DNA of 52,980 bases from Desulfuromonadales bacterium (GTDB lineage: Bacteria; Desulfobacterota; Desulfuromonadia; Geobacterales; Pseudopelobacteraceae). Shown here piece by piece: positions 32,505-52,300 of the stretch (position 1 is its first letter; each line of letters begins with the position of its first letter). The notes under the pieces are model-generated. The model did not search any database. It was given only the letters and a program-made list of their open reading frames with translations, and had not been told where the DNA came from. The position numbers and the translations under genes were made by a program. The stretch spans positions 1 to 52,980 of the forward strand of contig JAENWA010000121.1 of assembly GCA_016650295.1 (NCBI GenBank), in the 5' to 3' direction.

Positions 32505-32545
32505 TGAAAAACGGCCGCCTTCCGGATGGAGGCGGCCGTGGTGGA
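32505..32545 (-). terminator. Terminator of the di-heme peroxidase-like operon
   Basis: ACGGCCGCCT (32511-32520) pairs with AGGCGGCCGT (32530-32539). On the minus strand the stem is followed by TTTTTC. It closes the transcript from the two peroxidase-like genes. Confidence 0.85.
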
Positions 32546-32567
32546 GATCAATATTTTCTGGTGTGAG

Positions 32568-35168
32568 TTAGAAGGTAACCAGTCCCACAACCTTTCTGAG
32601 GACCAGCAGGGCATCGGCGATATCTATCGAGCCGCTCTGGCTGGGAACGCCGCTTACCAGAGGGGAAACATCAAGTAAATTCAGATCTGGGTCTGTAGGC
32701 TGAATCAAATTGGTCGTTATTCTCAGCGCCTTGAGGGCATCGGAAATGGTCAATGTCGTGCTTGAGTATATTGTGACAAATTTGAATGTAAAGTTTCCCG
32801 CTGGGTCGATGGCGGCGACTCCGATAGAGTTGGCTCCGGGGGTGAGCCCGCTGATCTGTGCGCTCCAGTTGCCGCCTGACAGCGTTACCGGGCTTACGGT
32901 GGCCGATGTGTTGGTTTCCACGAACAGGGTTACCCCCGGCTCCACCGTGCCGGAAATGGTCTGGGTGGTGTTGACGGTCGGGGTGGTGACGGCGTTGATA
33001 GTCAGGGCCGGGTCAACAGTATCCAGGAAAATGCTGCCGGTCACGGTAGTGGCGTTACCACCCGTATCCGTGGCGGTGACCGCAATGCTGTTGGCTCCCT
33101 GCACCAGGCCGGTCAGGGTGGTGCTCCAGGTGGTGTCGGTTACCGTGTCAGCCGGAGACGGTGAACCCGCGTTGAGGCTGACCAGGATTGACGATCCCAA
33201 TTCTTTCGTGCCGCTGATGGTCTGGCTGGACAGGCTGGTGGGGCTGGTGACCGGGTCGAGCGTGATGGCGATCGACGAAGCGGCAACGCCGTTGGCGTCG
33301 CGGGCGGCGATCCTGATAAATTCCGTATCGCCGTTGGGCAGGTGGCCGTTGGGCACGAACAGTTCGGGATGGTCGAAGGGCGCCGATTGATTCCTGACCC
33401 GTTCATCGGTCAGCGACTTCAGAAAGGCGACCATGGCCGTCATCTTGTCCGGGGCATTCTGCAGGACGCCGAGCTCGGCAATGTTGAAGTCCAGGTCCGG
33501 GCTGGCCGCCACCGACGGGAAATTCCCCCCGCGGGTGTAGAAATCGACCACATCCGCCAGGGTCATGACGCTGCCGTTATGGAAATAGGGGGCGGTCAGC
33601 TCCACGTTGCGCAGTCCGGGCACCTTGAAGGCGGCTTTATTGGAGACCGGGAAGTTGACGGGCAACTGGTCCGGCAGCACGATGGATGGAAAGGGGAGGT
33701 TGCCGAGCGCCTGCAGTTCGGCCAGATTGCAGAACCCAAGCGGTGTGAACAGGCCGGACAACGGGTTGATGAAGGGCGAATCCCCCCCCCTGCCGATATC
33801 TTCCGCCATCGGCCGCACACCGGTGCTGTTGTAACCGACATCGTAGATCGTATCAATACCGCTTGCCACCGGCATCTGGTCGATCACTCCGTTGGCGTTG
33901 TTGGTGACGAACGCGGCGGCCGTGGCCGTGGCGCTGGAAAGCTCGGTGCCGCCGTGGCAGACGTCGCACTTGCCGGCGCCGAAGAAGATGTTCATGCCGA
34001 GCTCCTGCTGGGGGGTAATGGCGTTCGAATCACCGCCCAGGAGCCGGTCGAAGGGTGTCTGATCGGAGACCAGGGTCGCCTCGTAGAGCTGGATGGCGAG
34101 CCCCCAGAAGAGCGAGAAGTTGGCCTCCATCTGGGTGAATCCACCCGTCAGCTGTGTGGATTTCCAGAAAGTATCCTGGAAGGCGTCCTTGATCATCTGC
34201 TCGTAGGTGGCATTGAGCCCGAGCTGGCCGGACACCTTTCCGCCCTGAAGGACAGCCCGTGAGAGCGGGCCGAGCACGCTGTCATTGGGGTGGACGACCT
34301 GCTTCCCGAGCGGTGTCAGGCTGAGCATCTTACTGCCCAGCTGCGGGAAGGTGCGGCCCCGGAAGGACATCTCGGTCGTATCGAGTGGCGGTCCGGTCGC
34401 CTGGGAGGCGAGACTGCCCATCTCTATGGAAATTTTCTGTTTCGTCAGGTTCCCGGCGGCGTCACTGAACCAGACACCGGCGGTGGTGTCGAGGGGCCCG
34501 AAAGGGTTCACGCCGTTGAAGAGAAAGTGGGCCCGGCCGTCCCAGAAATTGTTGAAGTTGAAGATCGCGTTGATGTTGGTCGGCGTGTTGCGCGCCGTAA
34601 CCTGCCGCATGCTGACGCCGCCGACCTGGAAGACCGTATCAACAGCCGGCGTCCCGCTGTCGACCGCGGAGCCGGAAATGACATTCACGAAATCGGTGAA
34701 TTTGACCCCCTGCGAGCCGACCACGTCATTGGCGTCGCGGCTGACCGGTGAGGACTGGAAGTCGGGGTTCTGGCGCTGGTGGAAGGGAAAATCGTTCGGC
34801 TGGAGGGTTTCATTGGGGCCGCGTACCTGAAAGGTTGCATCCCCGGCCCTGGCGCCCGGATTGACGGTGTTCTTCAGGCGCTTGTCCACACCGGCTTCGA
34901 AATGGCAGCTGGCGCACGCCTGGACCCCGTCGCTCCCCGCCTGCATGTCCCAGAACAGGGCCTTGCCCAGCTTGATGGCGGCGGGCTTGCTCTTGACGAA
35001 CTGGAACAGGTTGGGGGGCTCGGGCACCGGGACCTGGTTGAGGGGCTGCGCGAACAGGGCGGCCGGTGGATTTGCTCCGAAACTGATAGTCGGCAGCCAG
35101 GTGCAGATCAGAACGGTTGCAATCAAACGCAGAGTTGTTCGTGAGGTCATGTTTAACCCTTTCTTCAT
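32568..35168 (-). CDS. Secreted di-heme MauG/CCP-like protein with Ig-like domains and dockerin-like tail (1)
   Basis: An 866-residue protein with a signal peptide (LIATVLICTWLPTISFGA). The MauG/cytochrome c peroxidase-type part (residues about 40-600) carries two CxxCH haem sites: CASCH at 85-89 and CDVCH near 401. It also has family landmarks LGKALFWDMQAGSDG, NFWDGRA, FHNGSVMTLADVVDFYTRGG and LKSLTDERVRN. Two short Ig-like domains follow (TISGTKELGSSILVSLNAG, TISGTVEPGVTLFVETN), then the dockerin-like module (LTISDALKALR; IDIADALLVLRKVVGLVTF). It would act in the periplasm or outside the cell, reducing peroxide or oxidising another protein. GGGAG precedes the ATG. It lies 25 bp after its paralog. 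Confidence 0.87.
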   Translation of the reverse strand: MKKGLNMTSRTTLRLIATVLICTWLPTISFGANPPAALFAQPLNQVPVPEPPNLFQFVKSKPAAIKLGKALFWDMQAGSDGVQACASCHFEAGVDKRLKNTVNPGARAGDATFQVRGPNETLQPNDFPFHQRQNPDFQSSPVSRDANDVVGSQGVKFTDFVNVISGSAVDSGTPAVDTVFQVGGVSMRQVTARNTPTNINAIFNFNNFWDGRAHFLFNGVNPFGPLDTTAGVWFSDAAGNLTKQKISIEMGSLASQATGPPLDTTEMSFRGRTFPQLGSKMLSLTPLGKQVVHPNDSVLGPLSRAVLQGGKVSGQLGLNATYEQMIKDAFQDTFWKSTQLTGGFTQMEANFSLFWGLAIQLYEATLVSDQTPFDRLLGGDSNAITPQQELGMNIFFGAGKCDVCHGGTELSSATATAAAFVTNNANGVIDQMPVASGIDTIYDVGYNSTGVRPMAEDIGRGGDSPFINPLSGLFTPLGFCNLAELQALGNLPFPSIVLPDQLPVNFPVSNKAAFKVPGLRNVELTAPYFHNGSVMTLADVVDFYTRGGNFPSVAASPDLDFNIAELGVLQNAPDKMTAMVAFLKSLTDERVRNQSAPFDHPELFVPNGHLPNGDTEFIRIAARDANGVAASSIAITLDPVTSPTSLSSQTISGTKELGSSILVSLNAGSPSPADTVTDTTWSTTLTGLVQGANSIAVTATDTGGNATTVTGSIFLDTVDPALTINAVTTPTVNTTQTISGTVEPGVTLFVETNTSATVSPVTLSGGNWSAQISGLTPGANSIGVAAIDPAGNFTFKFVTIYSSTTLTISDALKALRITTNLIQPTDPDLNLLDVSPLVSGVPSQSGSIDIADALLVLRKVVGLVTF

Positions 35169-35193
35169 GGTAATTTCTCCCGTGACAGTACTA

Positions 35194-38100
35194 TTAAAAC
35201 GTTACCAAACCTACCGTTTTTCGAAGGATCAGCAGTGCGTCGGCAATATCGATCAGGTTGTTCTGGGTCGGCAGTCCATTTGCCAGAGGGGCGACATCGC
35301 CATGAATCATGTCCGTGGTTGTCGGCAGTTCCAGGCCGACCGCAAAGCGCAGCGCCTTGAGCGCGTCGGATATGTCCGTAACTCCGCTTCCCTTGAAGTT
35401 CCCATCGCGGGTCCGGGTAATCACGCCCGTGACCGTGGTCTCGTTGAAGAGATTATCCAGTGCAATGACCGTAACGGTAGTGGTTCCGCCTGCCAGACCG
35501 CTGATGTCGCAGCTCCAGGTACTGATACCTGCGCCGGGGACGGTGCTGACCGTTCCGGCCGTTGCGCCGGTGCTTACGGAAACCTGCGGGGTCGAGCCCA
35601 GTTCGACCGTGCCGCTGATGGTCTGGGTGCTGTTGCCCGTCGGGGGACTGACGTCATTCAGGGTCAGCACCGGCGGATTGGCCTTGACCGTCCAGACCCC
35701 CGTGGTGGGGAGCGTAGCGGGCTGCTGGTTGCCGGCTGCATCCTTGCCGTGGACGACAATGGAGTGAGTCCCGTCGGAGAGCGCACTCAGATTTATCGGT
35801 GTTGCGACGGAATCAACGACTATGAGCGGTCCTCCGTCAAATCTGTACTGGTAGCTCACCACCCCGGCTCCCCCGATTGTCAGGGTGGCGCTGTTCTGGT
35901 TGGTCCTGCCTCCCGGCGGGAGGCCGCTGATGGTGGCGGACGGCATCACCTGGATGTTCGCGACGGGAGCGCTCAGGGTATCGCCGGTGTCGTTGGTGGC
36001 GGTGACCGCGATGCTGTTGGGGCCGACGGCCAACCCGGTGACGGTGGCGCTCCAGGTAGCGGTAAAGGGGGTTGCGTCAATGGTGCATGCCAACGTCAAG
36101 GGGTCGATGATGCAGGGGACGGACGCAAAGACCGGTGTCCCGTTGTTGACGCTGATCGCTACTGTTGCCGTCGAGTCCACCGTTCCGGTCAGCAGCTGGC
36201 TGGTCAGAATGGTCGGCGTTGTGACCGGATTCAGAGTCAGGACGGTAAGCGGAACCGGGGCGGGAGCGCCACCGGTGGCAGTCAGCGTGATCATGTCATC
36301 GGCTCCGCTGACCGGATCAACGCCGTTAGGTATCAGGAGCTCCGGATGGTCGAAGGGCGCCCATTCGTTCCTGACCCGCTCATCGGTGAGGGCCTTGAGG
36401 AATTCCACCACCTCGATCCGGCCGGCCGCACCGCTCCTCAAATTGCCGATCGGCTGCATGGCCGCCGCCAGTTGAGGATTGCCGGGGAAATCCCCGCCAC
36501 GGGTGTAGAACTCCACCACCTGATCGAGGGTCAAGGCATCGCCGTTATGGAAGTAGGGGGGGGTCAGCTCTACGTTTCGCAGACCGGGGGTTTTGAAGGC
36601 GCCTTTCGTGTTGTCCGTCGCTGTTAGAACACTTGCAAGCCTGGGGGTCGCGAAGGGGAGTTGCCCCTGGACGCCAAGCAGCGCCAATTGTGCAAAAGAG
36701 AGCGGATAATTCTGGCCGGTAAGCTGGTTGACAAACGGCGCGGTACCCCCTCTCCCCTGGTCGGCTTCCGTGGTTCTGACGCCGATATTGAAGAAGCCGG
36801 CATCGATCAGTCCCGTGGTGAATGTCGTTGGATTGATGTCAAATTTGATCAGGCTGTGGGTGGTGTTGTTGGTGAACGCCACCGGATTGCAGTCAGGGAA
36901 AACGCAGTTGGGGATACTGCTGCCGGCCGCGGCGGCGGTGAACTCCGCGCCGGAATGGCAGACCGTACATTTGCCGTCAAAAGTCGCAAACCCTCGTTGG
37001 GCGGCGGGGCTCAGGGCGTTCCGGTTACCGGACTGGAAGCGGTCGAAGGGGGTCCGGTCGGAGACCAGGGTCGCTTCGTAGAGCTGGATGGCGAGCCCCC
37101 AGAAGAGGGAAAAGTTGGCCTCCATCTGGCTGAACTGCTCGCCTCCGGGGAGTGGGGCAGCCTTGGTCGGCAGGGTGACGGTGCGTGTTGAAATCCAGAG
37201 GTTGTCGGGGAAAGCGGCCTGGATCATCTGCGTGTAGTTGGTGGTAAGCCCTCTGTCACCCGCGACCGTTCCGTCCGGCTGAAGCGTGGCCCGGGAGAGG
37301 GTTCCCAGGACGCTGTCGCTGGAGTGGACAAGCTGCTGCCCGAGCGGCGGGGTTGTCAGGGTGAGCATCTTTCGGCCCAGTTCGGGAAAGGTGCGCCCTT
37401 TGAACGACATTTCAACGTCACTCAAGGCCGGGCCGACCGCCTGTGAGGCGAGGCTGGCGTTGGGGATAGCAATCTTCTGTTTCACCAGCGCCGCGCCGTC
37501 GTCGATCCAGATACCGGCCGACTGGTCAAGCGGGCCGAAGGGGTTTTCTCCGTTGAAGATATTGTTGGCCCGGCCGTCCCAGAAGTTGGCATAATTGAAG
37601 ACTGCGTTGATCACGGACGGCGAGTTGCGCCCGGTTACCTGACGAACGTTGTTGATCGGGTCGGCTGTGGCGCCGGTATGGAAGATCTGGTCGGCCAGCG
37701 GTGTTCCGCTGTCCAGGGCGGAGCTGTTGACGGCCAGGAAATCGGCCAGCCGGATTCCCTGGGAACCGACGACGTCGTTGGTGTCGCGCAGGAGCGTCAC
37801 CTCATCGGCGGTGAACCCGTTAGCCGGATCGGGAGTGAGCCGGGAAGTTATCGGTAATACCTGGAAGAGTGGGAAATCGGCGAATGGCTGCAGGAGGTAA
37901 TTCGGAGCGAACAGCGGACGCGCAGATGCCCTTAAAATCAAAGGTAAATTCAAATTTGTCAACGGGTCGATCGTAAAGGTTTTAATGACCGTGGAGTTGT
38001 TGCCGAAGATGGTATCGGGACCCGGATGGAGCTGGTTCCTGTCCCGTCTGGCCGTTTCCTTGGGAAACGAGCCGACAACCGGGTCCGCTCCGGCGCGGTA

Positions 38101-38382
38101 GTGGCAACTGGCGCAAGCCGTTGCCCCGTCACTGCCCGCCTGCATGTCCCAGAACAGGGCCTTGCCGAGTTGGATAGCGGCAGCTCTGGCAGCGGCAGTC
38201 GGTTTCCCATCCGGACCTGATCGGAGGAACTGGCCAAGGTTGGGTGGCTCGGGAACCGGTATCTTCCTGAGCGGGGGCTGGAGCGCTCCCCATGCAAAAC
38301 CGCTCGGCAGCAGGGCACAGATCATGATAACACACAGCAGACGCCTGACAGTCCGTGATTTCAGACAAAACGATACAACCAT
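35194..38382 (-). CDS. Secreted di-heme MauG/CCP-like protein with Ig-like domains and dockerin-like tail (2)
   Basis: The 1062-residue paralog of the next gene. The start at 38382 has GGAGG and begins a signal peptide (LLCVIMICALLPSGFAWG); the frame open to 38433 is rejected. Haem sites CASCH (near residue 89) and CTVCH (near 470) are present, with ALFWDMQAGSDGATACASCH, NFWDGRANNIFNGENPFGP, FHNGDALTLDQVVEFYTRGG and LKALTDERVRNEW. Three Ig-like or adhesion-like beta domains follow, and the module DISDALKALRFAVGL plus IDIADALLILRKTVGLVTF closes the chain. It carries an extra segment between the haems compared with its paralog. Both genes form one operon ending at the terminator near 32505. Confidence 0.87.
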   Translation of the reverse strand: MVVSFCLKSRTVRRLLCVIMICALLPSGFAWGALQPPLRKIPVPEPPNLGQFLRSGPDGKPTAAARAAAIQLGKALFWDMQAGSDGATACASCHYRAGADPVVGSFPKETARRDRNQLHPGPDTIFGNNSTVIKTFTIDPLTNLNLPLILRASARPLFAPNYLLQPFADFPLFQVLPITSRLTPDPANGFTADEVTLLRDTNDVVGSQGIRLADFLAVNSSALDSGTPLADQIFHTGATADPINNVRQVTGRNSPSVINAVFNYANFWDGRANNIFNGENPFGPLDQSAGIWIDDGAALVKQKIAIPNASLASQAVGPALSDVEMSFKGRTFPELGRKMLTLTTPPLGQQLVHSSDSVLGTLSRATLQPDGTVAGDRGLTTNYTQMIQAAFPDNLWISTRTVTLPTKAAPLPGGEQFSQMEANFSLFWGLAIQLYEATLVSDRTPFDRFQSGNRNALSPAAQRGFATFDGKCTVCHSGAEFTAAAAGSSIPNCVFPDCNPVAFTNNTTHSLIKFDINPTTFTTGLIDAGFFNIGVRTTEADQGRGGTAPFVNQLTGQNYPLSFAQLALLGVQGQLPFATPRLASVLTATDNTKGAFKTPGLRNVELTPPYFHNGDALTLDQVVEFYTRGGDFPGNPQLAAAMQPIGNLRSGAAGRIEVVEFLKALTDERVRNEWAPFDHPELLIPNGVDPVSGADDMITLTATGGAPAPVPLTVLTLNPVTTPTILTSQLLTGTVDSTATVAISVNNGTPVFASVPCIIDPLTLACTIDATPFTATWSATVTGLAVGPNSIAVTATNDTGDTLSAPVANIQVMPSATISGLPPGGRTNQNSATLTIGGAGVVSYQYRFDGGPLIVVDSVATPINLSALSDGTHSIVVHGKDAAGNQQPATLPTTGVWTVKANPPVLTLNDVSPPTGNSTQTISGTVELGSTPQVSVSTGATAGTVSTVPGAGISTWSCDISGLAGGTTTVTVIALDNLFNETTVTGVITRTRDGNFKGSGVTDISDALKALRFAVGLELPTTTDMIHGDVAPLANGLPTQNNLIDIADALLILRKTVGLVTF

Positions 38383-38827
38383 AGAGTCCTCCGGATTCCG
38401 TTTTCTTATGTAGGGCACAACTTTAAATAACAAATTTCAGTCGATAATTGAGCTTTCCAAATCAATACTAAAATAGTAAGCAAAATGCATGCCGCATTAA
38501 TCAGTGGATCTGATTGCCCTCAGTGAACGCATGGTTACACGCTCTTTTCTCAGGAAACGACCGTCTCAGGGGATGCAAAAATTTTTTCAGGGGGCGGGTA
38601 TCTGCGCACTATTTGGTTGACGTTGCCAGCAGGGTTTATTGATACAGTACCCACCTGCATTTAAAATCAACAGGTTGCGGTTCGAATTGACTCTGCCGGT
38701 GTGCCGAATTGATTGGCGCGATACCTGCAAGCATTTTTTTATGTCAATTTTTGTGGAAAACCTGCGAGGTTTTCAAAACCTCGCAGGTCTGTCCTGTCAA
38801 ATCAGCAGCAAACGTGGAGTCAACATC
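38383..38827. other. Divergent intergenic region, no gene
   Basis: About 445 bp between divergent genes that both encode dockerin-like proteins. It must hold promoters for both directions, but none is convincing by eye; TTGACG at 38617-38622 has only a weak -10 partner near 38640. It contains one 29-bp palindrome at 38760-38788. An open frame in the plus gene extends through here, but its signal peptide starts only at 38828. Confidence 0.5.
38760..38788. repeat. Palindrome ACCTGCGAGGTTTT-type, copy 1
   Basis: Perfect inverted repeat with 14-bp arms around a single C at 38774. A close relative lies at 42526-42558, where the G-C pair in the fourth position is replaced by C-G on both arms. It lies in the leader of the gene starting at 38828. 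Confidence 0.75.
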
Positions 38828-41200
38828 ATGAAAAATGTATTCCTGACAGCAGTTTTAGCTATGGTTTTATCATGCTCCATTGCCCAGGCCGTTGTGTATC
38901 AAGGGGCCATGGACAACCGTGCCGGTCTGCCGTTCGTGCCCGGTTTCACCGGCCACTCAAAGGCCTGGGTTACCGGCGGCGACCCCGGAGCGGGGCTGCG
39001 GCTGGAGTGGCAGGCCGACAACGAGACCACCCCCGGTTCATGGACCTACACCTACCGGCTGCTGCGGAACACCGCCAAAAACAAGGGCTTCGCCTTTTTC
39101 GACATCGAAACCGCTGCCGATTTCACGACAGCGAATATAACGTCCAGTCAGGTACTGTCCGCCACGGACGCCACCGGTGCTCCCATTCCGGCGGGGCTGG
39201 CTTCCATTACCATCTCGGGCTTTCAAAACTTTACTTCCCATCACGACTTTTCCAATGCCGCGGTCAGCGAGGTGAATTCCCAGACTGTGCTAAGCAAGTT
39301 TGATCTCAGCCACTACAGCGGCGATCCCGGCCGGGTAGCTCCCGGAAAGCCGGGCAGCAACAACTCGGCTACCCCGTCGGTCGGGCCGGTGCCTCACCCT
39401 TTCAGCGGCATCCGGGTGACCTTCCCCGGATCGTTCGCCGAACTGGCCAGTCTCGGCTATAATGCATGCGAGTGGTCGTTCCGGGTCGTCAGCGACCGGG
39501 TTCCCATGTGGGGGCATTTCTTCGGCTGGAGCGACCAGACCACCCTCTCCCCGTACTGGTATGCCGATATTTTCAACAACCATATCGATGACCCGATCCG
39601 CCTGACACTGGCGCCTATCGACAGCCTGACCGGCGCCGATCCGTATCAAGGCTGGATACTGGTCCCCGGTTCATTGCCGACCGTACTCTCAACCCTGCCG
39701 CTTGAAGGAGCGGTCGCGGCGCCGGTTACCGAGCCGGTCAGCGCCGTTTTCAGCGGTGTGATGGACCCACGGACCATTAAATCCACGACCTTTTCCCTGG
39801 CTGTCAACGGCATCCCGGTGGCCGGCAGGGTCAGCTATGATCCGGATGCCATGACCGCCACCTTTACGCCGAACTCCCCGCTCGTCCCCAACACCAGCTA
39901 TACGGCGACCATCTCCACCGGCGCAAAAGACCTGGCGGGAAATGCCCTGACGCTGCCGAAGAGCTGGGGCTTCACCACCGCTGCGCCGGATGTCACCCCG
40001 CCGACGGTAACAGCCACAATCCCCGGCAACACGGCCAACTTTGTTGGGATTACTACTCCCATCACTGCCTCTTTCAGCGAGGAAATTGATCCTTTTATGC
40101 TCACCGCGAACTTTACCGTCGATGACGCTGGTGATCCGGTATCAGGCACAGTCAGCTATATTCCCGCGATACGAACCGCCGTCTTTACACCGAGCGTCCC
40201 GCTTGCCAACAACACCACCTATACGGTCACCATTGCCACCGGTATCAGGGATCGTGCGGGTAATGCCATGGCCGTGCCGGTGACCTGGAGCTTCACCACC
40301 ATCCGCAAGGAGACGGTGCTGCCGTTAGTTACCGCAACCGTCCCGGCGGCCCGCTCTCTTAATGTCCAGATAAACAGCCCCATCATCGCCATCTTCAGCG
40401 AACCGATGGACCCGGCGACAATCAACGCTGCCACATTCAAGCTCAGCGCTGCGGGCGTTCCCGTTGCCGGCACGGTCAGCTATGACCCGGTATCCAATAC
40501 CGCCAGCTTCACGCCAGCCGAACCGGCCCTTGCCTTCAGTACTGCCTACAGTGTCTCAATTTTCACCGCGGTCAGTGACCTGGCCGGCAACCATCTGCCG
40601 CTGGTAAACGAGTTTACCTTCACAACCGCGGCGCCGGACACTGTCCCTCCGACGGTGACCGCAACCTCACCGAGCGACGGCTCTAATAACGTCCCGGTAG
40701 CGCCCCTCATCAGTGCCACATTCAGCGAACAGATTGATCCGGCGACGCTCGTCCCCGCAAGCATTACGGTGACTGGTCAGAGTTTCCTGGCCAGCGCCCC
40801 CTTTGCCGTCAGCGGAACGGTCAGCCTGAGCAGCGGTGGCATCAGTCTGCCGAGCGCCCTGTTTACACTCGCCGGACCGCTCCCCATGGGCACCGTCTAC
40901 AGCGTCAGGGTCACCGGCGTCAAAGATCTGACCGGGAACCTCATGACGGACAAGATCTGGAGTTTCACCACCATGCCGGACGGTATCCTGATCCCCGGCG
41001 AGAGCGGCGTTACCACGATTGCCGATGCCCTGAAAGTTCTGCGGATCGCCGTGAACCTGATTCCGCCGACGCAGGACGACAAAAACCACGGTGACGTTGC
41101 CCCCCTGGGCCCGGACGGCAAGCCCCAGCCCGACGGGAATATCGACATCCAGGATGCGCTGGTGATCCTGCGCAAGGCGGTCGGTCTGGTAAGCTGGTAA
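38828..41200 (+). CDS. Secreted protein with Big_5 Ig-like repeats and dockerin-like tail
   Basis: A 790-residue protein from the ATG at 38828 (GGAG upstream) with signal peptide MKNVFLTAVLAMVLSCSIAQA. Residues about 22-270 form an unrecognised beta-rich domain (LEWQADNETTPGSWTYTYRL, ISGFQNFTSHHDFS). Four SbsA/Big_5-type Ig-like repeats follow, each with a PxVTAT(I/V/S)P start and a W/F-S-F-T-T end, spaced about 100 residues. The C-terminus is the dockerin-like module, TTIADALKVLRIAVNL then HGDVAPLG...IDIQDALVILRKAVGLVSW. It is the only member of the group on the plus strand. No enzyme motif seen; probably a structural or adhesive partner. Confidence 0.8.
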   Translation: MKNVFLTAVLAMVLSCSIAQAVVYQGAMDNRAGLPFVPGFTGHSKAWVTGGDPGAGLRLEWQADNETTPGSWTYTYRLLRNTAKNKGFAFFDIETAADFTTANITSSQVLSATDATGAPIPAGLASITISGFQNFTSHHDFSNAAVSEVNSQTVLSKFDLSHYSGDPGRVAPGKPGSNNSATPSVGPVPHPFSGIRVTFPGSFAELASLGYNACEWSFRVVSDRVPMWGHFFGWSDQTTLSPYWYADIFNNHIDDPIRLTLAPIDSLTGADPYQGWILVPGSLPTVLSTLPLEGAVAAPVTEPVSAVFSGVMDPRTIKSTTFSLAVNGIPVAGRVSYDPDAMTATFTPNSPLVPNTSYTATISTGAKDLAGNALTLPKSWGFTTAAPDVTPPTVTATIPGNTANFVGITTPITASFSEEIDPFMLTANFTVDDAGDPVSGTVSYIPAIRTAVFTPSVPLANNTTYTVTIATGIRDRAGNAMAVPVTWSFTTIRKETVLPLVTATVPAARSLNVQINSPIIAIFSEPMDPATINAATFKLSAAGVPVAGTVSYDPVSNTASFTPAEPALAFSTAYSVSIFTAVSDLAGNHLPLVNEFTFTTAAPDTVPPTVTATSPSDGSNNVPVAPLISATFSEQIDPATLVPASITVTGQSFLASAPFAVSGTVSLSSGGISLPSALFTLAGPLPMGTVYSVRVTGVKDLTGNLMTDKIWSFTTMPDGILIPGESGVTTIADALKVLRIAVNLIPPTQDDKNHGDVAPLGPDGKPQPDGNIDIQDALVILRKAVGLVSW

Positions 41201-41333: not shown

Positions 41334-41564
41334 TCAAACATCTCCCGGCTTGTTTTTTTGATCGTTTTCGCCCTTGGCTTCCTTTTTGCTGTCATTTTCT
41401 GATGCAGCCTTGATTTCGATTTCTTCTTTTCCATCTGCCGCTTTTTTAAAATTACGAATACTTTTTCCCATGGCACCGGCGATTTCGGGGAGTTTTCCGG
41501 CGCCGAAAACCACCAGGACAATAACGAGAATAATGATCATTTCGGGCATACCGAATCCAAACAT
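41334..41564 (-). CDS. tatA: Sec-independent (Tat) translocase protein TatA
   Basis: A 76-residue TatA/E-type protein: a short N-terminal membrane helix ([20 protein letters not shown]), the FGxxKLPE hinge, an amphipathic helix ([14 protein letters not shown]) and an acidic/basic tail. TatA oligomers form the pore for folded proteins carrying twin-arginine signals. It stands alone here, without tatB or tatC, with AAAGGAGG before the ATG. It lies in the same block as a Tat-signal multicopper oxidase (gene at 45296-46810), a possible cargo. Confidence 0.93.
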
Positions 41565-43209: not shown

Positions 43210-45231
43210 TTACAGCGGGTTCAATCCCACCACCATTCTGAGAATGTTGAGTGAATCGCGGATGTCGATAACACCGTCCGGCGCCGGGACAGCGTTCAGG
43301 AACGGCGCCACGTCATAACGGAATTTTTCAAAATTATCGGGTTGTCTCAATCCGACCACATCCCGCAGCGAATTCAGGGCATCCGGCAGCTGGTAGCTGT
43401 TGGGCGCGAAGTCGGCAATACTGACCACGATGTTCGGCACGGTTTCGTTCCCGTCGTTGCAGGTAATCAGCTGCGAGGACGGGAAGTAGGCCTTGGTTTT
43501 ACCGGGTATGTCTGCGGTAACAGTGTAGCTGCCGTTGGTAATGCCGTTGATGGTGTATCTGCCGTCGGCGCCGGTCGTCGCCTGAAACGTTCCTGTCAGG
43601 GTACTGGCTGCTGATACGATACAGCCTGCGACCGGTGTACCGAGCTGGTCCACAACCAAGCCGATGAAGGCAAAAGGCGTCGGCTGTATAGGGGTGCCCG
43701 AGACGACGAAGGGCACCCTGGCGGTCATCAGTACCTCAAGCTTCTCACCCGCGCTGGGTTCCTGGCTCTTGTGGTTGATAAATTCGGCGATGATAAAATC
43801 GTTGATCGGGTTGTCAGCCTTGATCAGGGCGTCGAAGCGCCGGCCGACGGCCATGGTGTTAACATCGATAGGGGTGCCGGCCGGCACCAGGTACGACTCG
43901 TTGTGGCCATAGGGAGCCACACCCAGGGCGCGGCCGTCCCAAGCGATGATCACCGCGTTCACCGGCAGGGTGATCCGCAGAAAGTTGTAGGCGGCGTCGA
44001 GAATGCGGATCAGGATCGTATCTCCTGTTGCGGCGTTGACGGAGATTTGGGTGCCGCTGATGCCGCTGTTCAACCCCGGCGGGATGACGAGGCCGGGCGG
44101 GATGTCGCCGGTGCCCCCCTTGTGGGCCGGCACCGGCACGCCGGTGACGTACCAGTAATCGGCATTGAAGTCATTGAAGGCCGCGAAACCCAGCACCCCG
44201 GGATTGAGGTTAAAGCTGTCATTGAACCCCGGCCGGGTGCCCTGTCTGGGGAAGGTGGCCCGGGCACTTTTAGCCAGGTCGCTCCAGACCGAGTCCCGGT
44301 CGTCGAAGACCATCAGCGCCTCCACGTCGAAGGGGACGGTCATGGCATGGGGGTCGGTGGGAAACGATATCTGGGTGTCGTTCGGTCCCGGACCGGGGTC
44401 GGGAGCATCCACCGGATTGCGGTTGAAACCGGGGAACTGGGTGAACCTGGAATTCCCGGTAAGAGGGTCGTCCAGGTTGCAGGCCACCCGGCGCTTGCTG
44501 TCACGGCAGTGGCCGATCGGGACGCTGTTGAGGGTAACATCTCCCGTCAGCGGGTCGGTTGAGCCGATCGAGGCGAAGTAGGTGTCCGGACACTCGTAGA
44601 GCAGGGCGCTGTACAGGCCGAACTCGAAGTGCTGCATGGTGTTGCGGTGGCAGTGCAGGAAGTAGAAACCCATGAAATTGGGCTGCCACTGATAGCCGTA
44701 CTGGCCGAGTTCCATGGAGCAATGGCCGACACCGTCGTTCATGGGGGTCGGCTCCATGCCGTGCCAGTGGATGGTGTGGGGAGGCGGCCCCTTGCCCTGG
44801 ACCTGGGAGTTGAAGATCACACCACGGGGCATGCGCAGGGTGGGACCCGGGAAGGTGCCGGCGCTGGCAGACGGGTTATCCGAGTCGCCGATCGTGAAAA
44901 ACGTGAGCTGTTTCTGGCCGTCCCAGGTCGGAACTGTATGACCGAGCAACAGGGAGCGCTGGACCGTATGCGGAGCGGTCGGCCGGGCAATGGGCACTCC
45001 CAGCGCATTGACGGTAACAATAAAACCACCCGCGGCCATTACCTCCGGCACGGGATTGGGGCGGATCAGGCTGGTGCCGCCTTTGCCATCGGGCACTGTT
45101 TGCGGCTGCAGCAGCAACTGGTCGGTGGGTGGCGGGCTTTCAGTGGGTGGATCCCACATTTTGGCCCACATCCCCTCCATCCCAACGACGGACCAGCGGG
45201 TTACGGTGAAAGCAGGGTTTTGCAGTGACAT
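43210..45231 (-). CDS. Multicopper oxidase subunit B with dockerin-like tail, no signal peptide
   Basis: A 673-residue protein, ATG at 45231 with AAGGAGA upstream. Cupredoxin copper motifs are PHTIHWHG (His152, His155, His157; the HxxHxHG pattern) and FLHCHRNTMQHFEFGL (193-206, type-1 Cys194, His201). There are five residues between HCH and the next His rather than the usual three. After a second cupredoxin-like half comes a carboxypeptidase-regulatory-like beta domain (GLVVDQLGTPVAGCIV, TGADGRYTINGITNGSYTV), then LPDALNSLRDVVGL and DIRDSLNILRMVVGLNPL. No N-terminal signal is visible although the tail domains imply export. The other two HxH motifs are in the gene upstream, so the pair may form one oxidase. 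Confidence 0.85.
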   Translation of the reverse strand: MSLQNPAFTVTRWSVVGMEGMWAKMWDPPTESPPPTDQLLLQPQTVPDGKGGTSLIRPNPVPEVMAAGGFIVTVNALGVPIARPTAPHTVQRSLLLGHTVPTWDGQKQLTFFTIGDSDNPSASAGTFPGPTLRMPRGVIFNSQVQGKGPPPHTIHWHGMEPTPMNDGVGHCSMELGQYGYQWQPNFMGFYFLHCHRNTMQHFEFGLYSALLYECPDTYFASIGSTDPLTGDVTLNSVPIGHCRDSKRRVACNLDDPLTGNSRFTQFPGFNRNPVDAPDPGPGPNDTQISFPTDPHAMTVPFDVEALMVFDDRDSVWSDLAKSARATFPRQGTRPGFNDSFNLNPGVLGFAAFNDFNADYWYVTGVPVPAHKGGTGDIPPGLVIPPGLNSGISGTQISVNAATGDTILIRILDAAYNFLRITLPVNAVIIAWDGRALGVAPYGHNESYLVPAGTPIDVNTMAVGRRFDALIKADNPINDFIIAEFINHKSQEPSAGEKLEVLMTARVPFVVSGTPIQPTPFAFIGLVVDQLGTPVAGCIVSAASTLTGTFQATTGADGRYTINGITNGSYTVTADIPGKTKAYFPSSQLITCNDGNETVPNIVVSIADFAPNSYQLPDALNSLRDVVGLRQPDNFEKFRYDVAPFLNAVPAPDGVIDIRDSLNILRMVVGLNPL

Positions 45232-45295
45232 TAGTATCTCCTTTCTATCCTGTAATGATCTTTCGTATTGATATCAAGCGCCGGCTGTCCGGCCG

Positions 45296-46810
45296 TTAGC
45301 CCGCAACCGTTCGCGGACCGGTTGCCTCGCGGGTGGCGTTGACCCCACCCACGGCCAGGCCGCGGATGTCGCGGAACATCTGGCGGAAATCCCCATCCAT
45401 CGGGAAATTCATGAAATTTCCAAGCCCCTGGCTCTGGGCGTTGCGGTCGCCCGTGATGTAAAACCCGGTGATCAGGCCGCAGTTGTAGTTGCCCCCCTGG
45501 GCGGTCTGGCTCGACTCCAGGTGGTCATGGGCCGGGTAGCAGAGCGGCGACAGGCGCTGGCCCATCTCCACCTGTGTGACCCCGTCGAAAGCCAAGGCTT
45601 TCGTTCCCTCGCGCGGGAAAAAGGTCTGCATCTCCTGCTGGGGCGGCCAGCAGAATGCGCCGGTGGCTGTCCGCAACGGCTGGTCCGGCCGGCCGATGCC
45701 GCGGATATTGGCGTTATCAGGCGGACGCATGAACGGGAAGGTGTAGTCGATCTTGTCCATCGGCCTGTGCCCGTAGATATCCACCCAGATCGGATTGGGA
45801 TTGGGCTCGCCGTTGATGCTGGTGATGAAGAAGTGATTGCAGTGCGTATGATGTGAAATGCCCTGCACACCGGCGTTCAGGCAATGTATCACCACCGGCT
45901 CGCCGACCCGCCCCATAGGGGTGATGGCCGGGTCGAAATGGGAGAAGAAGCCGGACTGGCCGTTAACGGTGAAATACTGGGGCAGGCCGTTGTTGCGGGT
46001 GGGGCTGAACGTGCCGCGGGCGATCTTGTCCATGAACACCTTGGGATCCATTTGCTGCCCGGCCGGCAGAGCGCCCACCTCGGCCTGCAGGTTGGGGCTG
46101 GCCATGTGGTACAGCCAGACATACTGGCGAAAGGGAGGACAGTTGGTGTTCGGGTCGCCCTGTTCCCATTTCAGACCGGGCCAGAACGGGGTGCCGAACA
46201 TGTCAAACAGGTTCTGAACATGGGCGGTTGGACCGGTGCCGTTATTAAAATTGGCAGGGGTGACGTCGTAAGGGGTATAGTTGTGCCCGGTAAGTGCCAC
46301 GGCCGGACGGACCACAAGAGCGCCGTGCAGACCCATAGTCCGGTTGACCGGCGCGTTCAAGTTGTCGTAGTAGAGGTGGGCGCCCGATTGGTTGACGGTG
46401 AAGGTTACCGGTCCGACGGTCCCACCCGCGGGGATGGTACCGCTGTCGAAGATCACCGGGTCGCTGGGGAGAGCGCCGGGGATGAAGAATGAGTGGGGCT
46501 GATCCAAGGCGTTGGTGATCTTGATGGTGATGGAATCGCCTTTGATGGCATAGATTGTCGGTCCTGGACATTCGGGAGGAATGTCCACCCCGTCCGCCTT
46601 CATCTTGTAGATCCAGAAGTAGCAGCGGGCATCGTTGATTTCATTGTGGGTCACCATCTGCTTCATGCAGTCGGTGATGGTTACTTCCAATGTCTGGGTG
46701 GCGGCAAAGGCATTCTTTGTCCCTAAAAAGGGAATCCGGCTGCCCATGATGATGGTTGCAACCCCTGCTGAAGCACCTAACTTCAGGAAATCTCTTCGTT
46801 TCATTGTCAT
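45296..46810 (-). CDS. Multicopper oxidase subunit A with Tat signal
   Basis: A 504-residue protein beginning with a twin-arginine signal (KRRDFLKLGASAG, hydrophobic stretch, cleavage near AFA-A). AGGAGG precedes the ATG. Cupredoxin features include CPGPTIYAIKGDSITIKITN and GLHGALVV. Two copper HxH motifs are visible: HHTHCNH (320-326) and CYPAHDH (424-430). The type-1 HCH motif is missing; it is in the next gene, 64 bp downstream. Folded copper proteins normally use the Tat route. It is the first gene of a two-gene operon. The substrate is unknown; metal, phenol or oxygen-scavenging roles are possible. Confidence 0.86.
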   Translation of the reverse strand: MTMKRRDFLKLGASAGVATIIMGSRIPFLGTKNAFAATQTLEVTITDCMKQMVTHNEINDARCYFWIYKMKADGVDIPPECPGPTIYAIKGDSITIKITNALDQPHSFFIPGALPSDPVIFDSGTIPAGGTVGPVTFTVNQSGAHLYYDNLNAPVNRTMGLHGALVVRPAVALTGHNYTPYDVTPANFNNGTGPTAHVQNLFDMFGTPFWPGLKWEQGDPNTNCPPFRQYVWLYHMASPNLQAEVGALPAGQQMDPKVFMDKIARGTFSPTRNNGLPQYFTVNGQSGFFSHFDPAITPMGRVGEPVVIHCLNAGVQGISHHTHCNHFFITSINGEPNPNPIWVDIYGHRPMDKIDYTFPFMRPPDNANIRGIGRPDQPLRTATGAFCWPPQQEMQTFFPREGTKALAFDGVTQVEMGQRLSPLCYPAHDHLESSQTAQGGNYNCGLITGFYITGDRNAQSQGLGNFMNFPMDGDFRQMFRDIRGLAVGGVNATREATGPRTVAG

Positions 46811-47361
46811 TGTTTCCTCCTTTTGATCTCTGCGTTACCTAGGTTTTATGTCTGTACACTCTTCTGTTGACGTATATGACGTATGATTGAATTTTGGTTG
46901 CTGCAAAGCGCTAACGTTTAAAATCACACTTTCGTTGCGCTAAATTCAATTAATAATATACACAGAATGTGCCAAATATGCAAATTTGCTAAATTGTATA
47001 ATAATTCAAGTGTTTTGCAGAGACAAAGCCGGGGCTTTAGTCGATATATGTGATGTATATTTAAATTTGTATATTTTGGGGTATAAGTAGTTATCATGCT
47101 GAAAGTACTATATTTTTTTTAGATTTGAACGCAATGGTTACTGCCAAAATATTTACAGGGGTAATAACGGTACGTCAGCTCCCCCTGCGGCCATGAAGCC
47201 CCGATTATTCATGAAAACGGCGACAATAATCTATTGACTCTCACCCGATTATCCATGATACAGTTTTTGCTGTATACAACTTTTAGCAAGAGTTCTCTGC
47301 GCAAGCTGAATATAAGGTGGTATATTCAGATGATATATTTTTCGGACGGAAGGACTGGTTG
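46811..47361. other. Long AT-rich divergent intergenic region, no gene
   Basis: About 550 bp between the divergent multicopper oxidase and cusB-like operons, much richer in A+T than the genes around it. It contains an imperfect nested inverted repeat at 46886-46950 (ATTGAATTT/AAATTCAAT outside, AGCGCTAACG/CGTTGCGCT inside) upstream of the oxidase operon, and a TATAAT hexamer at 46997-47002 without a good -35 box. TTGACT at 47234-47239 may be a -35 box for cusB. No copper-box operator or sigma-54 site is evident. Confidence 0.5.
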
Positions 47362-48744
47362 ATGAACAGACGCAGCGCATTTGTGGTTATAATTGTGACG
47401 ATACTTGTCGTATCTGTGACCTACGGGCTGAAGCGTAGTGGACGGCAGGGCGGCGCAGACAGTGAAAATACGTCATCCGCCGGCAGCAAACCTGTACCCG
47501 GCGGAGTTGTCTATACCTGTCCGATGCACCCGTTCATTCTCAAGGATCGTCCCGGTACCTGCCCGATCTGTAACATGGAACTGGTGCAGAAAATCAACGG
47601 CGCCGAACTCTCCGACAATGATCTGCGGGGTGTACGCCATGTGGCGCTGTCGCCGACCCAGCAGGTCATAGCCAATCTGGCGACGGTGACGGTGGGTGTG
47701 AAGCCCTTCACCAGGGAGATAAAATGTACCGGTATCGTAGCCTTCAACCAGGAACGCCAGGGAAAGGTATCCGCCTGGGTGGCCGGGCGTCTCGACCGCC
47801 TGCTGGTCAAAAGCGTGGGGACTGAAGTGCGCAAGGGCATGCCGGTGGCCGAACTCTACTCGGTCGATCTGTACAATGCCGAGGCGCAGTACCTGATGGC
47901 CTACAAGACGCTCAAGATCCTGAACAGCTCCCTATCCGTTACATTTCCCATAAACACCCAGATGTCGCTGGGCGACGCCTACGAGCGTCTGCGCCAGCTC
48001 GGATTCAGCGAAGAGCAGTTCATCCGGCTGCAGAAATCCACAAGTCCGTCGATCCGGGTCCCGATCTACAGCCCCTTCTCCGGCGTGGTTACCGAGAAGC
48101 TTGTCAAGGAGGGACAGTACGTCAATGTCGGTGATCCGCTCTTCGCCATCGCCGACCTCTCCCGGATCTGGGTGGAACTTGAGGTTTTCGAAAGCGATTT
48201 TCCCTTCATCAAGGTCGGCCAGGACGTCACCATTCATTCCCGTTCCTATCCGGGAGAGCCCTCTCACGGGAAAGTGAAACTGATCTATCCCTTTCTGGAT
48301 GCCAAGTCACGTACAATCAAAATCAGGGTCGAGATCCCCAATCCCGGACTGAAGTTGAAACCGGAGATGTACGTGCAGGCGGCCATCAGCGTTCCCCAGA
48401 CGGCATCGCTGGTCATTCCCGCTGCGGCCGTCAAGGACACGGGTACGCGTCAGGTGGTCTGGGTCGAGTCCCGTCCGGGCGTGTTTCAGTCCCGGGATGT
48501 GAAAACGGGCGCCCGGTTCGGCAAGGAGCTGCAGATACTGTCCGGTCTGAAGGCCGGGGAGAAGGTGGCCACCACCGGCGGCTACCTGATCGACTCGGAA
48601 GCTCAGCTCAGTCGCGGTGCTGAAGAGACGCAAAAACCTCCCGCAGCGACGGAAAAACCGGCTGCGGCACCGGCGAAGCAGGCGCCGTCACCATCGCCGG
48701 CGCATAAAGATGAAATGGACATGAAAGATATGAAGATGAACTAA
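47362..48744 (+). CDS. CusB/CzcB-type heavy-metal efflux adaptor
   Basis: A 460-residue membrane fusion protein. The start at 47362 has GGAAGGA upstream and begins a membrane anchor (SAFVVIIVTILVVSVTYGL). A heavy-metal-binding domain (YTCPMHPFILKDRPGTCPIC, NMELV) lies at about residues 52-76. The adaptor core follows (VAGRLDRLLVKSVGTEVRKG, YSPFSGVVTEKLVKEGQYV, YPFLDAKSRTIKIRVEIPNP). The tail is Pro/Ala-rich and ends HKDEMDMKDMKMN, suited to Cu(I) or Ag(I). It partners the HME-type pump encoded at 49376. No outer-membrane channel gene is in this cluster. Confidence 0.9.
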   Translation: MNRRSAFVVIIVTILVVSVTYGLKRSGRQGGADSENTSSAGSKPVPGGVVYTCPMHPFILKDRPGTCPICNMELVQKINGAELSDNDLRGVRHVALSPTQQVIANLATVTVGVKPFTREIKCTGIVAFNQERQGKVSAWVAGRLDRLLVKSVGTEVRKGMPVAELYSVDLYNAEAQYLMAYKTLKILNSSLSVTFPINTQMSLGDAYERLRQLGFSEEQFIRLQKSTSPSIRVPIYSPFSGVVTEKLVKEGQYVNVGDPLFAIADLSRIWVELEVFESDFPFIKVGQDVTIHSRSYPGEPSHGKVKLIYPFLDAKSRTIKIRVEIPNPGLKLKPEMYVQAAISVPQTASLVIPAAAVKDTGTRQVVWVESRPGVFQSRDVKTGARFGKELQILSGLKAGEKVATTGGYLIDSEAQLSRGAEETQKPPAATEKPAAAPAKQAPSPSPAHKDEMDMKDMKMN

Positions 48745-48793
48745 GAAGTCGTCCCTGATGTCGCTTGACAGGGAATATAGAGGAAAGATAACT

Positions 48794-49273
48794 ATGAGAT
48801 TGCTGAGCATTTTTTTGGCTTCCATGATCCTGGTATGTGCCGTTTCGGCTGCCGCGGAGGATATGAACGGTTTTCGGGACTTCACCTGGGGCAGCAACAT
48901 GGAAGTGATCCTGGAATCGGATCCGATGCTGGTCGAGGGGCATATGGGGGTCATGCCGGGGGTCAAGGCCTATCAGCGGAGAGACGAAGACCTGAATTAC
49001 GGCGGAATAAAAGCCGATGGGATCACCTACATCTTTTTCAAGGGGCGGTTTACTTCCGTCAGCATTGATTTCAAGGGATTCGATAACTACGAAAAGCTTT
49101 TAGCCTATTGCTCAAAACGGTTCGGCCCGGTCACCGCGACGGCAGTAATGAGGCAGGAACAATATGCCGGTTTCGATACCCCCAAAACCGGTGTCATGCT
49201 CCTCTACCAGCTGTCCATGCAGACCGCCAACTACGGCAGGCTGTATCTCTACTCCAAGAAATTTTTGAATTAG
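48794..49273 (+). CDS. Periplasmic protein of unknown function between cusB-like and cusA-like genes
   Basis: A 159-residue protein from the ATG at 48794 (GAGG upstream) with a signal peptide (MRLLSIFLASMILVCAVSAA). The mature part starts EDMNGFRDFTWGSNMEVIL, has the segment GGIKADGITYIFFKGRFTSV and ends LYLYSKKFLN. The opening GFRDFTWG recurs in bacterial proteins of unknown role. Its place between adaptor and pump genes suggests a metal-efflux accessory, but it has no His/Cys cluster and few Met residues. Confidence 0.72.
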   Translation: MRLLSIFLASMILVCAVSAAAEDMNGFRDFTWGSNMEVILESDPMLVEGHMGVMPGVKAYQRRDEDLNYGGIKADGITYIFFKGRFTSVSIDFKGFDNYEKLLAYCSKRFGPVTATAVMRQEQYAGFDTPKTGVMLLYQLSMQTANYGRLYLYSKKFLN

Positions 49274-49298
49274 AAACCGGAAGGCAGGGATCGGAATT

Positions 49299-49359
49299 CG
49301 GCACTCGGGATTCGGGACTGGTAAAAACCGGTTTTGCGAGTCCCGAATCCCGAGTGCCG
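49299..49359. repeat. Perfect 21-bp inverted repeat before the cusA-like gene
   Basis: Bases 49299-49319 are exactly complementary to 49339-49359, with a 19-base loop. The stem ends about 7 bases before the GAGG ribosome site of the pump gene. There is no T tract. In RNA it would be a very stable hairpin between two genes of the operon, able to block 3' decay or tune expression of the pump. Confidence 0.8.
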
Positions 49360-49375
49360 GTGCCCGAGGTTTTAC

Positions 49376-52300
49376 ATGATCGAAAAAATTATCGAATTCA
49401 GCGCCCGCAACCGGTTTATCGTTGTGACAATCTTCGGGCTGATCATCGCTTGGGGGGGCTGGTCGATCTACAGCACACCGGTGGATGCCATTCCGGATCT
49501 GTCGGACAACCAGGTCATTGTCTTTACCGATTACCCCGGCCGCTCGCCGCAGGTGGTGGAGGACCAGATCACCTACCCTCTGGCCACCAACCTGCAAGGC
49601 CTGCCCAAGGTCAAGGCCGTACGCGCATCCAGCGCCTTCGGCTTCTCCATGATCTACGTCATCTTCGAGGACTCGGCCGACATCTACTGGGCCCGGACCC
49701 GCGTTCTGGAACGGCTCAACTACGCCTCCTCGCTCCTTCCGCCGGGAGTGGTTCCGACCCTCGGCCCGGACGGTACCGGGGTGGGGCATGTCTTCTGGTA
49801 CACCATTGAAGGCAAGGGCTATGACCTGGAACAGTTGCGCACCCTGCAGGACTGGTTCGTACGCTACCAGCTCAACACCGTCCCGGGTGTGGCCGAGGTG
49901 GCCTCCATCGGCGGATTTGTCCGGGAATACCAGATCGACCTGGACCCGAACAAGCTGTTTGCCTACAAGGTTGCCATCAGCCAGGTCGTGGAGGCGGTCA
50001 AACGCTCGAACAGTGATGTGGGCGGCCGCCTGCTGGAACAGTCCGATGCCGAATACCTGATCCGCGGCCGCGGTTATGTGCAGTCGCCGACCGACCTGGA
50101 AGATATTGTGATCGCCGCCGAACAGGGCGGTACCCCCGTTTACCTGAAGAACCTCGGCACCGTCCAGCTGGGGGGCGCCATCCGACGCGGCCTGCTGGAT
50201 AAAAACGGCAAAGGCGAAGCCGTGGGCGGCATCGTGGTTATGCGCTACGGCGAGAACGCCAAAGATGTCATCGACCGGGTCAAGGTCAAGATCAGTGAGC
50301 TGGAAAAAGGTTTGCCGCCCGATGTCAGGATTTTGGTCTCCTATGATCGCTCCGACCTGATCTCGCGCGCAATCAGCACCCTCAAGAAATCGCTGGTGGA
50401 GGAATCGGTTGTCGTCTCGCTGGTGATACTGGTCTTCCTGCTGCACTTCCGGAGTGCCCTGGTGATCGTGCTGACTCTGCCGATTTCCGTACTGATCGCT
50501 TTCATCACCATGAAACTGATGGGGGTCACCTCCAATATCATGTCCCTGGGTGGCATCGCCATCGCTATCGGCGTCTTGGTTGATGCCGGGGTGATCATGG
50601 TGGAAAACTGCTATCGCCACCTGTCCGAGATGCCGCCGGATACTCCGGACGTACAACGCCTGAACGTTGTCATCAACTCGGCCAAACAGGTCGGCCGGCC
50701 AATCTTCTTCTCCCTGGCAATCATCGTGCTCTCCTTTGTGCCGGTTTTCATGCTGGAGGGACAGGAGGGGAAACTCTTTCACCCGCTGGCCTTCACCAAG
50801 ACCTTCTCCATGATGGGTTCGGCACTGATCGCCATCACCCTGGTTCCGGCACTGATGAGCTGGTTCATGCGCGGCAGGATGCGCCCCGAGAGCTCCAACC
50901 GTGTATCGACCTTTTTCATCAAACTCTATGCACCGGTCATACGCTGGGTGCTGGTCTGGAAGAAAACCACCATTGCCCTGAACATCGTGGCCCTGCTGAT
51001 AGCCGTACCGCTCTTCATGCGCATGGGATCCGAATTCATGCCGCCACTGGACGAGGGTTCGCTGCTCTACATGCCGGTCACCCTGCCCAATGTCTCCATC
51101 ACCGAAGCCAAACGCCTGATTCAGGTGCAGGACACAATCATCAAGAGCGTGCCCGAGGTGAGCCAGGTGCTGGGAAAAGTCGGACGGGCCGAAACCTCCA
51201 CCGACCCCGCGCCGGTCTCCATGTTCGAGAGCATCATCATACTCAAACCCAAGGAACAGTGGCGTCCGGGGATCAAGAAGGCCGATATCGTGGCCGAGCT
51301 GGACGGCAAGCTGCAGCAGGTCGGGGTCAGAAACGGCTGGACCCAGCCGATCATCAACCGCATCAACATGCTCTCCACCGGCGTACGCACCGACCTGGGG
51401 GTCAAGATACTGGGAAGCAACCTGAACGTGCTGAATGACCTGGCGGTGCAGGCCGAGGCGATCCTCAAGCCGATTCCGGGCGCGGCCGATGTGGTGGCCG
51501 AACGGGTCACCGGCGGCAACTTTATCGACATCGATATCGACCGCGAGTCAGCCGCCCGTTATAACGTGAAGGTGGGCGATATTCAGGAAATCATTGAGAC
51601 TGCCCTGGGTGGCGCGGCGCTTTCCACTACCGTCGAAGGGCGCAATCGCTTCCCGATTCGCATTCGCTACCTGCGCGACTACCGCGACAGCATCCAGTCC
51701 ATCCAGCAGATTCTGGTTTCGGGGCAGGATGGCGTCACGCAGGTGCCGCTCTCGCTGGTGACCCGGCTCAAGGTCTCCACCGGCGCACCGGAGATCAACA
51801 GCGAGGGGGGGTTGCTCCGCTCGCTGGTATTTCTCAATGTGCGGGGTCGGGATATGGGCGGTTTTGTTACCGAGGCCAAGCAGACACTGGAAAAGAGCCT
51901 TAAACTGCCCCCCGGCTACTACCTGGCCTGGTCCGGCCAGTGGGAAAACCAGCTCCGCGCCAAGGCCCGCCTGCAGATTCTGATTCCTTTGGGGATTGTG
52001 ATCATCTTCGTCCTACTCTATTTCACCTTCCATTCGGCCCTGGAAGCCTCCATGGTCATGCTCTCGGTGCCTTTTGCCCTGGTGGGTGGGGTCTACCTGG
52101 TCTCGGCCCTGGGGTACAACCTGTCGGTGGCGGTCTGGGTCGGTTTTATCGCCCTGTACGGCATTGCCGTGGAGACCGGGGTGGTGATGGTGATTTACCT
52201 GCATGAGGCCCTGGACAGGAAACTGATCAACGGCCCCTGCACTGAGCAGGACATCAACGACGCCACCTTCGAGGGAGCCGTACTCAGGCTCAGGCCCAAA

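Follow-up and report, generated by a model that had tools for sequence, protein, structure and literature searches.

Within the window analysed here (that is, the whole 52,980-nucleotide stretch of DNA, from a Desulfuromonadales bacterium), two adjacent genes, termed A and B, very probably encode two obligate subunits of one multicopper oxidase, which would share a single trinuclear copper site and of which B would be exported as a hitchhiker on the twin-arginine translocation (Tat) signal of A. The evidence begins with the division of the copper ligands: the eight histidines of the trinuclear site are split, four and four, between A and B, and all of the type-1 ligands are in B. This division was followed through 40 A/B sets from 29 genomes, found by searches with A and with two 11-row profiles, A1 (the A core) and A2 (the B core), where a pair was counted only if B lies at most 800 bases downstream of A. 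The sampling leans toward pairs, because most loci were reached via a match to A or to B; one locus, L102, whose A is cut by a contig end, is outside the 40 sets. (Here L numbers denote loci and G numbers genomes.) The features of the two genes are these:

45296..46810, minus strand: gene A (504 residues), a Tat-type N-terminus plus two cupredoxin-like domains, the second of which holds half of the trinuclear-site histidines
46700..46810, minus strand: Tat-type signal region of A (residues 1-37, with KRRDFLK)
46304..46582, minus strand: domain 1 of A (residues 77-169), Cu-oxidase_3, trinuclear ligands lost (Pfam and ligand alignment)
45842..45850, minus strand: H321-x-H323 of A, trinuclear-site histidines, in 40/40 sets
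45521..45529, minus strand: H428-D-H430 of A, trinuclear-site histidines, in 40/40 sets
45238..45244, minus strand: Shine-Dalgarno sequence AAAGGAG of B
43210..45231, minus strand: gene B (673 residues), a type-1 copper domain, a ligand-less domain 2, a CarboxypepD_reg domain and a dockerin-like tail, with no signal peptide seen
44761..44778, minus strand: H152-T-I-H155-W-H157 of B, the type-1 His and two trinuclear-site His, all three in 40/40 sets
44614..44655, minus strand: H193-C194-H195...H201...G205-L206 of B, type-1 Cys/His and two trinuclear-site His (H193, C194, H195, H201 and G205 in 40/40 sets)
43687..44334, minus strand: domain 2 of B (about residues 300-515), trinuclear ligands lost (sequence alignment)
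43483..43662, minus strand: CarboxypepD_reg domain of B (residues 524-583; Pfam)
43213..43398, minus strand: dockerin-like double repeat forming the C-terminal tail of B, which matches 8 further places in the genome (4 within the window)

Pfam finds one Cu-oxidase_3 domain in each protein and, in B, the CarboxypepD_reg domain as well. The motifs HHTHCNH (residues 320-326) and AHDH (427-430) of A, and HTIHWHG (152-158) and HCHRNTMQH (193-201) of B, lie where an initial annotation of this DNA had placed them, its gene coordinates likewise being correct; A has no HCH motif. Residues H321, H323, H326, H428 and H430 of A and residues H152, H155, H157, H193, C194, H195 and H201 of B are each invariant in the alignment of the 40 sets, which is far beyond chance and which bears out that annotation's view of two chains with complementary copper motifs. 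The full multicopper oxidase motif set (the eight trinuclear histidines plus the type-1 His-Cys-His) is thus held by A and B jointly in 40/40 sets; the annotation had staked its proposal on neither protein carrying a complete set by itself, and in the ligand alignment of the 40 sets neither A nor B does. Its reading of HHTHCNH as an HxH motif is right for H321 and H323, which are the aligned trinuclear ligands (compare MHLHANH in relatives), but position 320 is mostly not histidine, being Met or Pro in 26 of the 40 sets and His in 2. Between H428 and H430 lies Asp in 20 sets, Cys in 12 and Ser in 8; this cysteine is probably not a type-1 cysteine, because no type-1 histidine follows it in the motif (MHCHxEPSQT...). 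At the positions of domain 1 of A that align with trinuclear ligands, histidine occurs at 109 in 0, at 111 in 1, at 148 in 0 and at 150 in 3 of the 40 sets, and at the corresponding positions in domain 2 of B it occurs at 421 in 0, at 423 in 1, at 481 in 0 and at 483 in 0.

As judged by alignment, each chain appears to span both domains of a two-domain oxidase, with the ligands gone from domain 1 of A and from domain 2 of B. Profile A1 aligns along the whole of the two-domain laccase 2zwn, including the HxMHxH and HDH of its second domain (the match covers domain 1 and two stretches of domain 2, HAMHSHGHD and, as a weak match, HDHVDTHVTAGG); for profile A2 the best match is the type-1 domain of 3g5w and 2zwn, where it covers HTIHWHG and HCHxN...H of domain 1; and comparison of the two profiles shows them to be homologues (hhalign probability 97.0, E 9.6e-11). 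Both ligand sets are found in one chain in seven single-chain two-domain oxidases of the window's phylum (L148-L154); aligned to these, A shows HSFFIPG and YYDNLNAPVNR in place of the domain-1 HTIHWHG and HCH, and B shows no histidine set in domain 2. The homology of A and B, together with their opposite ligand losses, points to a complementary decay of two related chains rather than to one chain that was cut. Hence the initial annotation's oxidase split into two subunits stands insofar as two chains share the motifs, but not as one enzyme cut in two, each chain apparently spanning both domains.

In two-domain oxidases the trinuclear cluster is located between two protomers, according to the portion of PMC13151041 available to us. 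From this perspective, A and B would both descend from a two-domain oxidase chain with type-1 copper in domain 1 (termed type C): A would have lost its domain-1 trinuclear ligands while retaining, in domain 2, a half-site that lacks type-1 copper (H321, H323, H428, H430), and B would have lost its domain-2 ligands and kept domain 1 (type-1 H152, C194 and H201; trinuclear H155, H157, H193 and H195). Since it takes domain 1 of one protomer and domain 2 of its neighbour to build the cluster, a working O2-reducing site would arise only at the contact between domain 2 of A and domain 1 of B. A and B would assemble in the cytoplasm; the Tat system would export the folded complex on the signal of A, with B as hitchhiker; and copper would probably be loaded after export.

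The same ligands can be read differently, namely as belonging to two separate proteins, with B a blue-copper or nitrite-reductase-like protein that works without A, and A a scaffold or chaperone. B alone does contain a complete type-1 site, and its best matches in the Protein Data Bank (PDB) are nitrite reductases and two-domain oxidases; yet its four non-type-1 histidines and the four of A are invariant, and a lone type-1 protein would not need these. Moreover, no B without A was seen among the loci examined, and the two occur in nature as a fusion (L046, described below). Across 174 loci, 118 B frames score above 100 bits (repeats of the same gene included), and 116 of these have A just upstream; the other two, in L138 and L160, come from short loci of the L045 and L094 pairs, for which longer loci do show A. 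We consider separate roles for A and B very unlikely.

Gene organization likewise supports two obligate subunits. A and B are separate genes in different frames with a 64-base gap, and the ATG of B is preceded at six bases by a good Shine-Dalgarno sequence, AAAGGAG; no in-frame start was found upstream of it (the open frame has 687 codons versus 673 for B, and the list of open reading frames has no earlier start). Given this ribosome site of its own and the lack of an earlier in-frame start, the gap is not explained by a simple frameshift. In 39 of the 40 sets the two are separate frames on one strand, B following A directly (gaps of 6 to 341 bases, with two overlapping readings). The remaining set, L046, is a natural fusion, with A and B in one 854-codon frame behind a single Tat-type N-terminus; a search for such single-chain homologues had been proposed in the initial annotation. 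L046 could be taken to mean that a single-chain oxidase split recently to give the pair (that is, a broken or mis-assembled gene), as could an Arthrobacter plasmid copy (L166) that resembles a fused gene with a frame break. But B is equipped with a start and a ribosome site of its own, the split sets extend across both large clades of the tree, an archaeon and Alphaproteobacteria, and L046 is nested among split sequences as the sister to L048 plus L170 (support 0.993) in an unrooted tree of 35 sets, from which L166, L087, L103, L094 and L172 (broken or partial) were left out. A recent frameshift or assembly error is ruled out by the ribosome site of B together with the 39/40 split sets, and fission of a single-chain oxidase seems to us highly improbable.

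The N-terminus of A begins MTMKRRDFLKLG and matches Pfam TAT_signal with E 0.0019 (18.5 bits, below the 22.7 cut-off). An RR-x-[FLV] motif is present in A in 36/40 sets, including L170 and L046; among those without it, L094, L101 and L103 start at a contig end and L166 has none. The N-termini of B are polar: over the first 50 residues, no 15-residue stretch exceeds a hydropathy of 1.11 in 38 of 39 split B proteins, L171 being borderline (1.57). Thus, by motif and hydropathy, the pair displays the signal pattern of a Tat hitchhiker (an RR carrier and a partner without a signal), in agreement with the initial annotation, which had assigned a Tat signal to A only. The tatA gene to which it had drawn attention is indeed nearby, and its closeness to the pair may be due to chance:

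41334..41564, minus strand: tatA/E (76 residues; PF02416, E 6.6e-19), 1.6 kb beyond B

Another possibility is that the enzyme has two chains but that B is exported alone, by an undescribed signal or some other route. Co-export is, after all, something that we infer, and in the window's clade the N-terminus of B conserves a pattern, M-S-x-x-x-P (M1, S2 and P6 invariant in 5/5). However, the N-termini of B are not signal-like (as noted, at most 1.11 in 38/39), L046, the fused form, carries just one Tat-type N-terminus, and a related family places a hydrophobic N-terminus on both chains, all of which makes separate export of B unlikely.

This related family (L049-L054) is distant, Sec-like and similar in its motif division, in reversed order, B then A. 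Both A and B have a hydrophobic Sec-like N-terminus in 6/6 loci, with hydropathy of 1.67-2.85 over the 12 chains, within the first 80 residues rather than the first 50 used for split B, a difference that counts against the comparison. Two signals in Sec-like pairs versus one in Tat-like pairs is as hitchhiking predicts. The extracellular-type tail of the window's B also suggests that B does leave the cytoplasm. A third cupredoxin-like chain with a hydrophobic N-terminus is present in 5/6 of these loci, the sixth (L053) ending with its contig. The layout in L049-L054 is a type-1-domain chain, a half-site chain and (in 5/6 loci) the third cupredoxin-like chain, mostly with dockerin-like tails; possibly this is a three-chain hetero-oxidase.

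A/B sets occur in the window's own order and phylum, in Citrifermentans bremense (L040), in Ca. Methanoperedens nitroreducens (L041) and on Indioceanicola and Arthrobacter plasmids. The nearest named relative is the pair of a Desulfuromonadales metagenome-assembled genome (L039; A 79 % and B 71 % identical); the L041 pair is 53 % (A) and 51 % (B) identical to that of the window. Because profile A1 matches only 13 of 395 genomes of the phylum (E up to 1e-20), the system is scattered rather than universal there. A second search of the phylum, through matches to B, gave 16 genomes: 8 were known from the earlier searches, as recognised by contig number and position, with one pair (L173) added, and the other 8 have the single-chain two-domain oxidases L148-L154 plus L147 (partial). 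A plasmid search with B returned 3 records, namely two Alphaproteobacterial pairs and the Arthrobacter copy. Within the order to which the Methanoperedens genome belongs, B is in that genome alone (1/149 genomes, E up to 1e-20), for which reason the archaeal pair was probably acquired. In L041 (11297-16372), the gene after B encodes a 1691-residue protein with a further Cu-oxidase_3 domain. The window's genome (G000, 4.07 Mb) has a second split pair, L048, on contig C93; genome G235/G800 has five copies (L084-L087 and L173), one with an interrupted B. On the plasmid of Arthrobacter sp. FW305-BF8 (L166:3562-5909), the A and B frames overlap and, by eye, the A frame continues into B-like sequence; this is probably a once-fused gene with a frame break.

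Several observations weigh against a shared oxidase with a co-exported subunit. The type-1 axial residue of B is Leu in 27/40 sets and Met in 13. The ligand decay is not perfectly clean: a type-1-like H106 is kept in domain 1 of A in 36/40 sets, and there are the stray histidines at A 111, A 150 and B 423; within the Sec-like family, A of L051 has an extra HCH, making the division less strict there. The assignment of A to the Tat pathway is a probable one, founded on the RR motif and on sub-threshold Pfam matches. It is not obvious how an A-B pair, with its four domains, would close a ring that has six in the homotrimer. Because single-chain AlphaFold2 models of A and B are so poor (mean pLDDT, the predicted local distance difference test, of 32.9 and 36.7; 5 sequences each), the convergence of the half-sites is one that we infer from homology. 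Over the 35 sets, the distances among A proteins and those among B proteins correlate closely (r 0.93, with no more than 0.21 in any of 999 permutations); this is in keeping with A and B travelling together, but is inflated in part by shared species history. Finally, two pairs are damaged, L087 (with B interrupted) and L166 (with its frame break), so that not every copy need be active.

Taking these points together, we lean toward a more general proposal: a widespread class of hetero-oligomeric oxidases may have arisen through duplication of a two-domain oxidase and reciprocal half-site loss, such that the cluster forms only once the two products meet and Tat co-export serves as a built-in assembly check. 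The Sec-like family would be a sister class, in which three cupredoxin chains (B-A-C) divide the motifs in a like way and might amount to the two-domain trimer in hetero form.

Regarding the tail of B, which the initial annotation had called dockerin-like, the double repeat is present in the window's B, but is not general to the system: it occurs in some Desulfuromonadales loci and is missing from others and from archaeal B. Against Pfam Dockerin_1 the tail gives no match up to E 0.1; the tail of L050 scores E 0.0019, below the cut-off. At least five window proteins, including B, share this C-terminal double repeat (27691-41200 and 43213-43398), one of them also having four Big_5 stretches, and there are 4 matches to the tail region elsewhere in the genome, outside the window.

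Two nearby genes, downstream on the same strand as B with several other genes between, may bear on function:

35194..38433, minus strand: MauG/MbnH-like di-haem protein with a dockerin-like tail, a possible functional partner, not adjacent
32568..35168, minus strand: second MauG-like di-haem protein with a dockerin-like tail

A MauG-type gene (PF03150) is located at most 5.1 kb from an A/B pair in 11/15 genomes (picked by us from the 29, with at most 7 matches per genome). In the window, in L042-L045 and in L047, the oxidase pair has long MauG/MbnH-like di-haem proteins in its vicinity. Against such a link, G024 (with the fused pair) and G140 lack any PF03150 match, G232 and G651 carry theirs on contigs other than that of the pair, and the second G000 pair (C93) and two of the three G328 pairs have none near. 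Divergent to A, at 47317-52516, are a CusB-like fusion protein with a heavy-metal binding domain and a resistance-nodulation-division pump (a CusB/CusA-type efflux pair). Our guess is that A and B form a periplasmic or surface metal oxidase, whose substrate might be Cu(I) or another metal ion, and which might work with the MauG-like di-haem protein as its electron partner.

If correct, this would be a multicopper oxidase in which two different gene products share the catalytic cluster, and a living example of specialization among the paired domains of a cupredoxin ring, which bears on how three- and six-domain oxidases evolved. The one-signal Tat-type pairs and their Sec-like relatives with a signal per chain would provide a natural contrast for Tat hitchhiking. 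More generally, annotation that expects four motifs in one chain would miss such enzymes in metal-cycling bacteria and Methanoperedens.

Among known systems, CueO and CopA have a Tat-type N-terminus, in which they resemble A. The three-domain oxidases CueO, CopA and PcoA also resemble A/B in a weak match of the first domain; they differ in domain plan, and membership of A/B in the CueO/CopA family was rejected (22-28 bits versus cut-offs of 479 and 525). OmpB and OmpC of Geobacter and MofA of Leptothrix are, like A/B, extracellular multicopper proteins of related or metal-cycling bacteria, but are single proteins, set apart here by their description alone in the accessible part of PMC5566968. 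In the open PubMed Central literature, no Tat-hitchhiker multicopper oxidase and no two-gene or heteromeric oxidase of this kind was found (one may be described elsewhere), and the heterotrimer mentioned in the portion available of PMC10367259 refers to another enzyme. Classical Tat hitchhiker enzymes include hydrogenases and formate dehydrogenases, in which one subunit has the RR signal and its partner does not; A/B resembles these in having the RR signal on one subunit only. Close in architecture are the two-domain oxidases of type C (2zwn and 3g5w, a label read here from their motifs), which likewise have two cupredoxin domains, HTIHWHG, HCHxxxxxH, HxMHxH and HDH, type-1 copper in domain 1 and a trinuclear site expected where domain 1 of one chain meets domain 2 of a second. 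By alignment, A and B share with these the two cupredoxin domains per chain and the type-1 domain 1, its ligands being in B and not in A. Known type C enzymes, however, are homotrimers in which one chain carries both half-sites, whereas neither A nor B does: each retains a single half-site, with the opposite domain stripped.

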